Shown here piece after piece: positions 53,530 to 56,181 of a stretch of DNA of 64,000 nucleotides. Every line of letters starts with the position of its first letter. Position 1 is the first letter of the stretch. The notes below the pieces were generated by a model. It saw only the letters and a program-made list of their open reading frames with translations. It was not told the origin of the DNA and ran no database searches. Position numbers and translations under genes: made by a program. Source of the stretch: Rhodomicrobium lacus (GTDB lineage Bacteria > Pseudomonadota > Alphaproteobacteria > Rhizobiales > Rhodomicrobiaceae); contig NZ_RZNF01000012.1 of the NCBI RefSeq assembly GCF_003992725.1, positions 496,001 through 560,000 on the forward strand, in the 5' to 3' direction.

Positions 53530-54963
53530 ATGTCGAACGATGATACCGCCACCTGGTCGCGGCTGAAGGCGTTGCCTCGGGCATCGCTTTTCCTTGTCGC
53601 GGTGATCGCGCTCGCCTTCGTGGATGTGTTCACGGGATGGAGGCCAGCCGCCTTCATCGCGCTGCCGTTCCTGATCGCCTATTTCGCCTGTGTCTGGAAC
53701 CGCATGATCCTGAACGCGAAGATCCTGCTCGCGGGCTGCGCGGCGATAGGCATCTTCGCCGCATTCCAGCCCGGGGGCATTGCGATCCTTGGCGCCGGCG
53801 CGAGTCGAATGGTTTATCTGCCGACCTTCATTGCGCTGCTCGGCCTTCTGCGCGCGGCGGCGAGCGCGTCCACGATGATCGCGCTCGCAGGTCGCCACCT
53901 CGTGAACCAGCCGCCCTCGCGCCGTTATCTGTCGCTGTCCTTCGGAGCGCATTTCTTCGGCGTCCTGCTCAACATCGGCGGCCTGGCGCTTCTCGTCGAG
54001 ATGGTGCGCGACGCCAACACGCTGAAAGCGGCGGGCGGCAATGAACGGATCGTCGCCTGGCGCGAGCGGCGCATGACAGCGGCGGCGCTGCGCGGCTTTT
54101 CCGCCATCGTGTTCTGGTCGCCGCTCGGCGTTTCCTTCAATCTGCTGCTCGTCTCGGTGCCCGGCTTGACATGGGCGGAAGCAGGGCCGCTTGGCATCCT
54201 CGGCGCAACGGCGTTCATTCTGCTCGGCTGGATTTTCGATCAGGTGCAGAAGCCGAAAGGATTTCAGCGGCAGGAACCGCAGAGGATAGCAGGCGGGATG
54301 CTCGCGGTCGCCGCATTGATCGGCCATGTCGCGGCGATTTCGGTTGCGACGGGCTTCGTCGAGCGCGAGCTGGACCTGTCGTTCCAGACTGCGCTTCTCG
54401 TCGCGGTGCCCGTTTACGCCTTCCTGTGGGCGCTCGGCATCTCGATGGCGAGCGCGCGGCCCGCGCCTGTGAAGGCGAGCGCCGCAATCCTCATCGACAA
54501 GGGCGTCGCGGCATTTCCGGGCTATGCGAACGAAATCGCGGTCTTCGCGGCGTCGGGCTTCCTGGGCGCTGCCCTCGTCGCGCTCGTGCCGCAGGATGCG
54601 ATGCGCGCCTTCTTCCACACGATACCGCTGCCGCCCGCGCTGTTCGCCTGCGGGCTTTGCCTCAGCGTTGCGGCGATGGGGCAGATCGGGCTCAATCCGA
54701 TGATCGGCGCGACCATCCTTGCGAGCGCTGTCGCGTCCGTCGACATGCCCGGCCTTTCCAAGACGGCCATCGTGCTTGCCATCGCAGCGGGCTGGACATG
54801 CTCGGTCATATCATCGCCGTTCAACTCGTCGCTCGTGATGACGGCGTCGCTCGTCAACCGCCGTCCCGGCGAGGTGGCCTACAAATGGAACGGGCTCTTT
54901 ACGCTGGCCGCGCTTTTCCTGAGTTGCCTTGTGCTTGCACTCACCCTGCCGCTGGCGCGCTGA
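53530..54963 (+). CDS. Polytopic membrane protein, putative permease
   Basis: 477 residues with about 10-12 hydrophobic segments (for example ASLFLVAVIALAFVDVFTGW, YLPTFIALLGLLRAAASAST, LFACGLCLSVAAMGQIGLNP). Internal similarity in layout and helical hairpin-like loops (FWSPLGVSFNLLLVSVPGL; GWTCSVISSPFNSSLVMTA) resembles ion-transporter superfamily proteins with two re-entrant regions. No specific family or substrate can be named. Confidence 0.75.
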   Translation: MSNDDTATWSRLKALPRASLFLVAVIALAFVDVFTGWRPAAFIALPFLIAYFACVWNRMILNAKILLAGCAAIGIFAAFQPGGIAILGAGASRMVYLPTFIALLGLLRAAASASTMIALAGRHLVNQPPSRRYLSLSFGAHFFGVLLNIGGLALLVEMVRDANTLKAAGGNERIVAWRERRMTAAALRGFSAIVFWSPLGVSFNLLLVSVPGLTWAEAGPLGILGATAFILLGWIFDQVQKPKGFQRQEPQRIAGGMLAVAALIGHVAAISVATGFVERELDLSFQTALLVAVPVYAFLWALGISMASARPAPVKASAAILIDKGVAAFPGYANEIAVFAASGFLGAALVALVPQDAMRAFFHTIPLPPALFACGLCLSVAAMGQIGLNPMIGATILASAVASVDMPGLSKTAIVLAIAAGWTCSVISSPFNSSLVMTASLVNRRPGEVAYKWNGLFTLAALFLSCLVLALTLPLAR

Positions 54964-54988: not shown

Positions 54989-55004
54989 AATTGCATGCGC
55001 AATT
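54989..55004. repeat. Short dyad after the permease gene
   Basis: AATTGC-ATGC-GCAATT, a 6-bp dyad with 4-base centre, directly before the composite palindromic element. No T tract. Confidence 0.4.
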
Positions 55005-55008
55005 GACG

Positions 55009-55174
55009 CTAGTGGAGCGAATTTGACATTTGAGTCCCGGTGGCTGCGCGCTTGCGAGCAAATGTCAAATTCAAAACTCCACTAGAATCATGATATTGCT
55101 AGTGGTCTTTTCGATTCCGACATTTGCTCGCAAGCGTGCTGCAAACGATGCAAATGTCGGAATCGGACCACTAG
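55009..55174. repeat. Composite palindromic element: two tandem long hairpins (MITE- or BIME-like)
   Basis: Hairpin 1 spans 55009-55085 (arms 55009-55032 and 55059-55085); hairpin 2 spans 55099-55174 (arms 55099-55126 and 55151-55174); a 13-base spacer containing ATCATGAT separates them. All four arms begin or end with CTAGTGG/CCACTAG and share the inner core GACATTTG/CAAATGTC. In both hairpins one arm has a small T-rich bulge. The inner flank CTTGCGAG of hairpin 1 recurs inverted (CTCGCAAG) in hairpin 2, so the halves are inverted copies of one unit. It lies between the permease and bestrophin genes and codes for nothing evident. Confidence 0.85.
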
Positions 55175-55269
55175 ACTGCGACAAAACGTGCGAGCGTGGC
55201 AGCGCTCACACCGATTTTGCCCTTCCTTCAAGTCGACGGCGTCCGCCGTCCTGGCGAGAGATTCCCGAG

Positions 55270-56181
55270 ATGATCGTTCGCAAGTCGCCGAACATGCTGG
55301 CGATGCTGTTTACCTTGCGCGGAACCGTGGTGATTCAGATCTGGCAGCGGCTGCTCATCGTTGCCGTCGTGTCGACCTTCGTGGCCGTCTTCCCGCATGT
55401 GTGGTCGGAACCGCTGCCGTCGGTTTCGCTGGCGCCCTTCAGCCTGATCGGCCTTGTGCTGTCCATCTTCCTCGGCTTTCGGAACAACGCCTGCTACGAC
55501 CGCTGGTGGGAAGCACGCAAGCAATGGGGCCATCTCATCGCTCAGTCGCGGGCGCTCGCTCGCGAGGCGCGTGCGCTGCACGATCCCGAAGTGACGGAGC
55601 GGATCGCGCGGCGTTCCATCGGTTTCGCCGCCGTGCTTGCGGCACGCCTTCGCGGGCAAGACGAGGCGGCCGCTTTGCGCCCCTGGCTCTCGGAGGCGGA
55701 GGCGGTCGCGGTGCTCGCGACCCGCAACCGGCCTCAGGCCGTCCTTCAGCTCCTGACGGTGGAAATCGTCGACGTCCATCGCAGGGGAAACTGCGGCGAG
55801 ATCCTGCTGCGGATGCTTGAAGACCGCGTGGAGGAAATGAACGCGATCCAGACCGCCTGCGAGCGGATCAAGAACACGCCCGCGCCCTTCGCCTATTCGC
55901 TGCTGCTGCACCGGACATCGTGGATTTTCTGCCTTGTCTCGCCGTTCGGCCTTTGGGAGACCTGCGGGCTTGCAACGCCGCTTTTCACCCTTGTGCTGGC
56001 TTACGCATTCTTCGGCCTCGATGCCGTCGGCGACGAGTTGGAGGAGCCTTTCAGCCTTTTGCCCAACGGCCTGCCCCTCAATGCCATGGTGCGCACCATC
56101 GAGATCGATCTTCTTGAGACGATCGGCGCGAAGGAAATCCCGGAGCCCTTGCAGCCGGTCGACGGCTGGCTTCTCACCTGA
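55270..56181 (+). CDS. Bestrophin family (YneE-like) membrane protein
   Basis: 303 residues, homologous to bacterial bestrophin channels (KpBest type) that conduct ions across the inner membrane. Visible landmarks: FTLRGTVVIQIWQRLLIVAV, LGFRNNACYDRWWEARKQWG (a strongly conserved block) and the C-terminal EEPFSLLPNGLPLNAMVRTI. The open frame extends upstream through the palindromic element, but homology begins at MIVRKSPNMLAMLF, so the ATG at 55270 is chosen. Confidence 0.9.
   Translation: MIVRKSPNMLAMLFTLRGTVVIQIWQRLLIVAVVSTFVAVFPHVWSEPLPSVSLAPFSLIGLVLSIFLGFRNNACYDRWWEARKQWGHLIAQSRALAREARALHDPEVTERIARRSIGFAAVLAARLRGQDEAAALRPWLSEAEAVAVLATRNRPQAVLQLLTVEIVDVHRRGNCGEILLRMLEDRVEEMNAIQTACERIKNTPAPFAYSLLLHRTSWIFCLVSPFGLWETCGLATPLFTLVLAYAFFGLDAVGDELEEPFSLLPNGLPLNAMVRTIEIDLLETIGAKEIPEPLQPVDGWLLT

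Follow-up and report, generated by a model that had tools for sequence, protein, structure and literature searches.

Given that two long stem-loops built on one common unit lie side by side in an intergenic stretch of Rhodomicrobium lacus, the question arises what kind of repeat they form, where it settles, what keeps its arms alike and what could move it. Herein, we followed the element from the window (the whole stretch of 64,000 nucleotides that was analysed) to the rest of the home genome, to related genomes and to plasmids. We found that the feature is probably one copy of a non-autonomous IS630-type MITE.

Structure and recurrence of the double hairpin

The element occupies positions 55009-55174 and consists of two hairpins (77 and 76 bp) joined by a 13-bp linker. 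Hairpin A (55009-55085, plus strand, 77 bp) has the outer arms CTAGTGGAG and CTCCACTAG and the inner arms GAATTTGACATTTG and CAAATGTCAAATTC, with an A-rich bulge on the 3' arm. Hairpin B (55099-55174, plus strand, 76 bp) has the outer arms CTAGTGGTC and GACCACTAG and the inner arms GATTCCGACATTTGC and GCAAATGTCGGAATC, with a T-rich bulge on the 5' arm and a GANTC in both arms. The 13-bp linker (55086-55098) reads AATCATGATATTG, and a linker of about this length was found throughout the 29 aligned doublets described below. The outer CTAG on the left (55009-55012) is read as target C-TA plus the first G of the element, and that on the right (55171-55174) as the last C of the element plus target TA-G. 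Upstream lies a gene of 477 aa (53530-54963, plus strand) with no Pfam family at E 0.001; since its stop ends 45 bp before the element, the window copy is off any stop codon. The downstream gene (55270-56181, plus strand) encodes a Bestrophin_2 family protein (PF25539).

The words CTAGTGG and GACATTTG each occurred four times in the 64-kb window, every time within the element, and shuffling gave four or more occurrences in 2 and 9 of 100 trials, respectively. The sequence-only reading had described two tandem stem-loops of about 76 bp with a 13-bp spacer, CTAGTGG and an inner-edge word common to all four arms, AG and AATT in one hairpin against TC and CGATTCC in the other, and bulges in the same place in both. 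All of these features were found again, the bulges being A/T-rich and located on both linker-facing arms. When each hairpin was folded singly, on both strands, z ranged from -5.8 to -11.2 and none of 200 shuffles was equally stable; the whole element region gave z = -9.7. In the best RNA fold of the region (window 55000-55180), A and B pair with each other to form a single long structure rather than two hairpins, with -87.4 kcal/mol for the joint structure versus -35.4 and -44.4 for the separate hairpins.

The earlier expectation that the unit recurs across the genome was borne out. The home genome (3.88 Mb, 24 contigs) yielded 91 matching pieces with 40 of 73 candidates scored; merged by eye, these represent 40 distinct places, all of which were analysed, so that at least 40 copies is a lower bound. 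The consensus unit has CTAG ends and measures 168 bp, of which 78 belong to hairpin A, 13 to the linker and 77 to hairpin B. A doublet alignment was obtained in 31 of the 40 places, and three others (L028, L060 and L064) hold hairpin B only. The congeners carry their own sets, with at least 29, 27 and 31 matches in G001, G002 and G004, respectively; 20 candidates per genome were scored, out of 48 to 64 in these copy-rich congeners, and the counts are therefore lower bounds. No match to the element was found in the same-genus genome G003. When the flanks of the 40 own places were compared with those of 44 fetched loci (20 from G001, 20 from G004 and 4 from G002), one insertion was common at both flanks (L066 and L184). 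Tandem copies in G004 have one CTAG in common.

Beyond the genus, 4 of 289 Alphaproteobacteria genomes, the home genome included, matched at E 0.001 (two candidates scored per genome, hence a lower bound), and the family accordingly looks patchy. An exact-pattern scan of named genomes found at least 119 loci bearing the element. Carriers among the matches listed are Chelatococcus, Phyllobacterium, Jiella, Brucella daejeonensis and Agrobacterium vitis, along with Novosphingobium, Sphingomonas, Rhodomicrobium udaipurense and Caulobacterales MAGs. Among the same listed matches (119 loci), 100 loci gave 106 delimited complete elements: 83 doublets of 163-169 bp, 19 singles of 71-78 bp and 4 larger arrays. 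With 83 of these 106 elements being doublets, the A-linker-B arrangement appears to be the usual unit in several orders. A single copy lacking counterparts in relatives is thus excluded by the at least 40 home places, the three congeners and the at least 119 other loci.

The element therefore has the traits of a MITE: it is short, bears terminal inverted repeats (CTAGTGG...GACATTTG) in a 168-bp consensus, and stands in at least 40 places, and it is too short for a transposase gene. Its unit can be written as GTGG-hairpin A-linker-hairpin B-CCAC set at TA, mostly inside CTAG. The sequence-only reading had left open a MITE-like or a REP/BIME-like repeat. In the latter case, a RAYT tyrosine transposase would move the repeat as single-stranded hairpins, and the palindromic make-up, the many copies and the presence of single and paired hairpins would agree with this. 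Against it, no Y1_Tnp (RAYT, PF01797) match was found in any of 12 carrier genomes, with 5 of 14 controls positive, and the element has inverted repeats and TA at both ends as well as hairpins of about 77 bp. We consider a REP/BIME-type repeat highly improbable, and it was the MITE half of the proposal that was supported. Collectively, the element family is real, mobile and of MITE type; it is ordinary in kind and unusual in its use of stop codons and its conserved double hairpin.

Two side observations concern copies of the element. In the downstream flank of the own copy L007 lies a further palindrome-like repeat family; G004 has dozens of matches to it, and a few were seen in each of G001 and G002. 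In addition, a viral contig (IMG/VR) ends inside an element copy at L354 (14567-14717), which may be a prophage boundary or a binning artefact.

Stop codons as places of residence

In 26 of the 40 home-genome places, the adjoining gene ends on the outer TAG of the element (25 TAG and one TAA), a placement that the sequence-only reading had not noticed. Stop overlap was also seen in 12 of 20 pieces of G001, in 4 of 24 pieces of G004 and, among the matches listed from other genomes, in 44 of the 106 complete elements, none of which was placed within a gene by the gene finder. All these fractions, and the background counts below, come from one crude, home-made codon-usage gene finder trained on the window. 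An alternative count in which some copies are split (43 home pieces) gives 28 stop labels including false ones, such as that of L021, where a TGA lies 3 bases off; 26 of 40 is preferred. Deposited annotation was consulted for 7 of 19 plasmid records, with near-duplicates, unannotated records and the weakest matches omitted; one of the seven lacked annotation. A deposited CDS ends exactly on the element TAG in four of the six annotated copies (Agrobacterium T29, Rhizobium RCAM05350, Bradyrhizobium CB82 and A. vitis) and in neither of the other two (Martelella and Aminobacter). Stop residence was found for 16 of the 20 home copies scoring best against the window copy and for 10 of the other 20, a trend (p = 0.096).

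Since CTAG is the usual seat of the element, the fractions were set against the background of this word. CTAG occurs 13 times in the 64-kb window versus 217 expected, about 17 times rarer, and four of the 13 lie in the element. Apart from those of the element, 464 kb of background contained 16 CTAGs at stops, 82 in intergenic and 44 in coding sequence. The home proportion of 26/40 exceeds that of the non-coding background CTAGs (16/98; Fisher p = 5e-8), and the 44/106 elements among the matches listed from other genomes exceed a background of 37/173 non-coding CTAGs (p = 0.0003). G004 shows little stop excess. When stops were compared with positions 1-60 bp behind a gene, the ratio was 38:8 for the element (own genome and G001) versus 15:13 in the background (p = 0.015), a moderate excess over CTAGs close behind genes. 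Because the excess shrinks against near-gene CTAGs, the pattern can be mostly attributed to target availability and the purging of harmful insertions, and there may be a residual preference for stop codons beyond target availability.

To see the sites without the element, the flanks of twelve stop-sited own copies were joined and searched in four congeners. The joined flanks of L060 had no match in these four genomes. The other eleven copies gave 38 rows, which come to 36 different orthologous or paralogous places once two repeats are set aside, and the element was absent from the 60 bases after the stop in all 36. The position of the stop codon is unchanged in 30 of the 36 places (16 TAG, 6 TAA and 8 TGA). 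L003 accounts for four of the six exceptions, with all of its places; the remaining two, both in G003, belong to L015 (L118) and L069 (L138). Gene truncation was rejected as the general cause of stop overlap, given the 30 related stops of identical position, with L003 excepted.

The empty places also bear on the target duplication. At L002 the empty stop reads CTAG in two species, at L008 in three and at L016 in one. The copy L069 is internally deleted; its empty place reads CGC-TAA in G001, G002 and G004, and its filled place reads CGC-TA(GTGG...CCAC)TAA in the home genome, indicating that two bases were duplicated and that the element provides the G that keeps a stop. A 2-bp duplication is thus suggested by one locus with three relatives, whereas in L014 CTAA stands at each end, which would agree with a duplication of 4 bp. 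TA stands inside CTAG at most element ends, and the end-base counts (outer C in 126 of 142, inner G in 133 of 142) are compatible with either duplication length.

Collectively, these data suggest how the distribution may arise. Insertions into genes and promoters would be purged by selection in genomes where CTAG is rare, and a TAG or TAA stop would be a harmless site, because the terminal G of the element rebuilds it. The likeliest role of the element would be selfish persistence, the hairpins at mRNA 3' ends having at most incidental effects. It is also conceivable, though rather unlikely, that integration itself is directed to stop codons, in that the complex, over and above CTAG availability and purifying selection, favours CTAG or CTAA at gene ends and the terminal G rebuilds the stop; such a preference could work, for example, via DNA exposed at translation or transcription termination, and the reading as a whole is held with the same reserve.

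Small mobile repeats need harmless insertion places, and here the rule is readable: a rare CTAG coincides with TAG stops. A rare target word, together with a first base that completes the stop, allows dozens of strong hairpins to be tolerated at gene ends with the protein unchanged. The system offers a simple and testable example in which target choice and selection can be told apart, and the natural empty and filled stops allow the effect of a stop-adjacent hairpin on mRNA and termination to be measured.

Other mobile DNA was seen at the same TAG of two G004 stops, namely an IS427-like end at the L015 orthologue and a double hairpin at the L009 orthologue. The latter (L133, 1645-1757) is a different double-hairpin repeat, and stretches related to it were also found in L209, L213, L201, L205 and L137.

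Matched arms, RNA folding and methylation sites

We next considered what keeps the paired arms alike. The 83 doublets were clustered at 85% identity, and the 28 representatives plus the window copy gave an alignment of 29 rows. The structure pairs 96.3% of the cells; this value and the counts that follow apply to a structure read from the same sequences, with related rows counted repeatedly. Matched changes were found at 14 pairs, with 59 doubly changed cells, versus 6.6 and 14.5 in shuffles; the covariation score was 0.145 versus 0.072 shuffled, and none of 500 shuffles scored as high. One-sided wobble cells numbered 14 and mismatches, summed from the table, 52. Further pair types showed no excess (25 versus 26.4 in shuffles), and the loops are variable across the aligned doublets.

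Since selection on RNA is expected to leave more G-U intermediates, the few wobbles point to matching at the DNA level. The hairpin interior is inverted in L022 and L023 (hairpin B) and in L027 (hairpin A), and in the window copy the loop side of hairpin A partly resembles hairpin B sequence, which suggests exchange within palindromes. The matched changes had earlier been ascribed either to selection for the fold or to copying; judged by the aligned sequences, DNA-level copying appears to fit better than RNA folding, with 59 doubly changed against 14 wobble cells and inversions in three copies, and fold selection is disfavoured. The arms would thus be kept alike through copying or inversion inside the palindrome.

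The same data bear on a role in RNA. A regulatory element of mRNA 3' ends (a terminator, stabiliser or processing site) that is selected for its fold and placed after stops to act there would account for the very stable folds, for the position directly behind genes and for a covariation that no shuffle equalled. Nevertheless, no terminator-like site was found inside the element, the sole one found lying beyond it. The orientation, tabulated for copies at stops, is unbiased (hairpin B adjoins the stop in 23 and hairpin A in 18), and the element is absent from all 36 related places. The wobble count, the lack of excess pair types and the variable loops likewise speak against selection on a fold, and no Rfam family reached its gathering score. 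We therefore regard a 3'-end RNA element as improbable. Sub-threshold Rfam matches, to microRNA and archaeal sRNA families, were set aside as an effect of the long palindrome.

Besides being a mobile repeat, the element might act as a cluster of methylation sites, a possibility that we consider rather unlikely. Of the 29 rows, 26 keep GANTC, the CcrM site, in the left arm of hairpin B and 26 keep it in the right arm, and the variation at its N position consists of paired changes (column 117: 22 U-A, 6 C-G). By contrast, only 16 of the 29 rows have GANTC in hairpin A, and 13 have it in the linker. A comparable repeat is CIR, the Caulobacter CcrM-associated repeat, which in the accessible parts of the sources (PMC2229807, PMC10969869) is an intergenic alphaproteobacterial repeat with two inverted-repeat arms, a linker and GANTC, the arms being described as long and the hosts as Caulobacter and Brucella (PMC2229807). 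Two inverted-repeat arms, a linker and GANTC within the repeat are likewise found in our element. CIR, compared here by description only, differs in its length of about 110 bp, and the accessible parts of PMC2229807 and PMC10969869 describe no TA target, stop-codon placement or transposase link for it. The consensus here has 168 bp, and 83 of the 106 elements among the matches listed measure 163-169 bp and 19 measure 71-78 bp.

The putative mobilising transposase and comparable systems

Given that the element has no room for a transposase gene, elements with similar ends were sought. Thirty IS630 loci (PF13358) from the genus and near relatives showed no element-like ends, and neither did 30 IS427-like loci (PF13340); in both sets, many loci were without a terminal repeat that could be found. 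Fourteen single-ended loci, viewed for an end-adjoining transposase, proved instead to be degenerate copies, contig-end cuts and single hairpins. A plasmid search with two 30-nt arms returned element copies and weak matches, with no evident IS among them. The short end matches L038 (1501-1633) and L045 (1399-1531) in G009 were rejected as IS; they appear to be a distant relative that likewise has two hairpins and is bounded by CTAGTGG, with a differing interior and a shorter second hairpin.

An end resembling the element arms was found in an IS630 element of Sphingomonas sp. 37zxx (L404), where CTA is followed by GTGGATTGATTCCAACGTTTGG. The match of its first six letters is no test, because L404 was chosen for holding TAGTGG; over the whole end, element arms matched up to 19 of 24 positions, and no plus-strand 24-mer of the window exceeded 16. 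The best 30 of 167 plasmid matches to the L404 end include transposases annotated as IS630-like ISAr1 family. ISAr1-type ends read CTA-GTGGATTGATTCC...AATCAATCCAC-TAG, and six copies (two of which are the same insertion in related plasmids), each 1146 bp long, lie between CTA and TAG and terminate in GTGGATTGAT or a sequence close to it. Beyond GTGG, the own hairpin B agreed with the left end of the Rhizobium leguminosarum copy at 12 of 18 positions, with p = 0.0002 by a simple, uncorrected binomial, in one of twenty own-consensus comparisons. Agreement between the arms and the right ends of the IS is weak (p 0.02 to 0.14 for the own consensus).

In the home genome, the single ISAr1-like transposase copy is split over two frames and lies near a contig end (G000:C2:648-1675, L099). 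The ends of this copy and of its relatives in G001 read GTGCACTGAC instead of GTGG. All 10 complete copies of the G001 IS stand at CTAG, and 3 of the 10 on a neighbour's stop. Because an ISAr1-like transposase was found at E 1e-20 in only 4 of the 21 genomes searched (20 of them carriers), we infer the mobiliser rather than name it: judged from the ends, it would be an ISAr1-type transposase. Such an enzyme of the IS630 family, supplied in trans, would recognise GTGG.....GA.T...AC..TTTG ends and join the ends of the element to TA with a 2-bp duplication.

The ISAr1 group, which consists of autonomous insertion sequences, thus resembles the element in its CTA-GTGG... ends, its insertion at CTAG and a left end similar to the element arms. 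It differs in encoding a transposase within 1146 bp, whereas the element has no room for a gene and contains two internal hairpins. In the ISAr1-type copies, including L438 (1502-2581), the transposase frame ends on a TAG formed with the target, so that the insertion site supplies the stop codon of the IS. The stop-codon rule of the element mirrors this arrangement: the ISAr1 transposase gene ends on the junction TAG, and the element instead spares the stops of host genes. IS870 of Agrobacterium vitis, which we take to be a relative of the ISAr1 group, reportedly requires a CTAG target to create its own stop codon.

Other known repeats were compared as well. Correia/NEMIS and RUP are not known to share the sequence of the element, and RIME (Rhizobium-specific intergenic mosaic elements) are built from large palindromes. 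According to the accessible part of PMC2229807, Correia/NEMIS and RUP are short MITEs with terminal inverted repeats and TA ends, like the element, and RUP is proposed to be moved by IS630-Spn1; they occur in other hosts, and stop-codon residence is not mentioned in that part. Br-REP1 and Br-REP2 of Bradyrhizobium are likewise palindromic, alphaproteobacterial and located in 3' untranslated regions, as far as the available text of PMC5082802 goes, but the consensus printed there looks unrelated by eye and the core is much shorter. RIME are rhizobial intergenic repeats and were compared by description only, from the accessible part of PMC2573895. No Sinorhizobium record appeared among the plasmid matches to the element, though S. 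meliloti pSymB is in the searched collection. The term 'stop codon' is absent from the accessible part of the MITE review PMC10969869, and no report of a stop-codon-resident MITE was found in the literature searched, as far as its texts were accessible, most subscription journals lying outside its scope. In a text search of the literature with pieces of the sequence, the 20 matches listed out of 174 are unrelated by title, which is no proof of absence from print.

An IS5/IS427-type transposase is a second candidate for moving the element. Several IS427-like elements whose ends start with G were found here at CTA-..-TAG, and one of them (L150) sits at the CTAG terminating a degenerate hairpin-B copy. 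Yet among the fetched PF13340 and PF01609 loci with detectable terminal repeats, a subset of the matches in which many loci showed no repeats, none had GTGGWSCGAWTYYGACATTTG-like ends, and 4 of 10 other carrier genomes had no PF13340 match. We consider this origin unlikely, and the ISAr1-type transposase remains the preferred candidate. The L150 element itself is an IS427-like IS of G002 (955-1818) with the ends GGAAGTGTGGACATTT, and its end was found again in G004 (L129), where it lies on the TAG with which the L015 orthologue stops.
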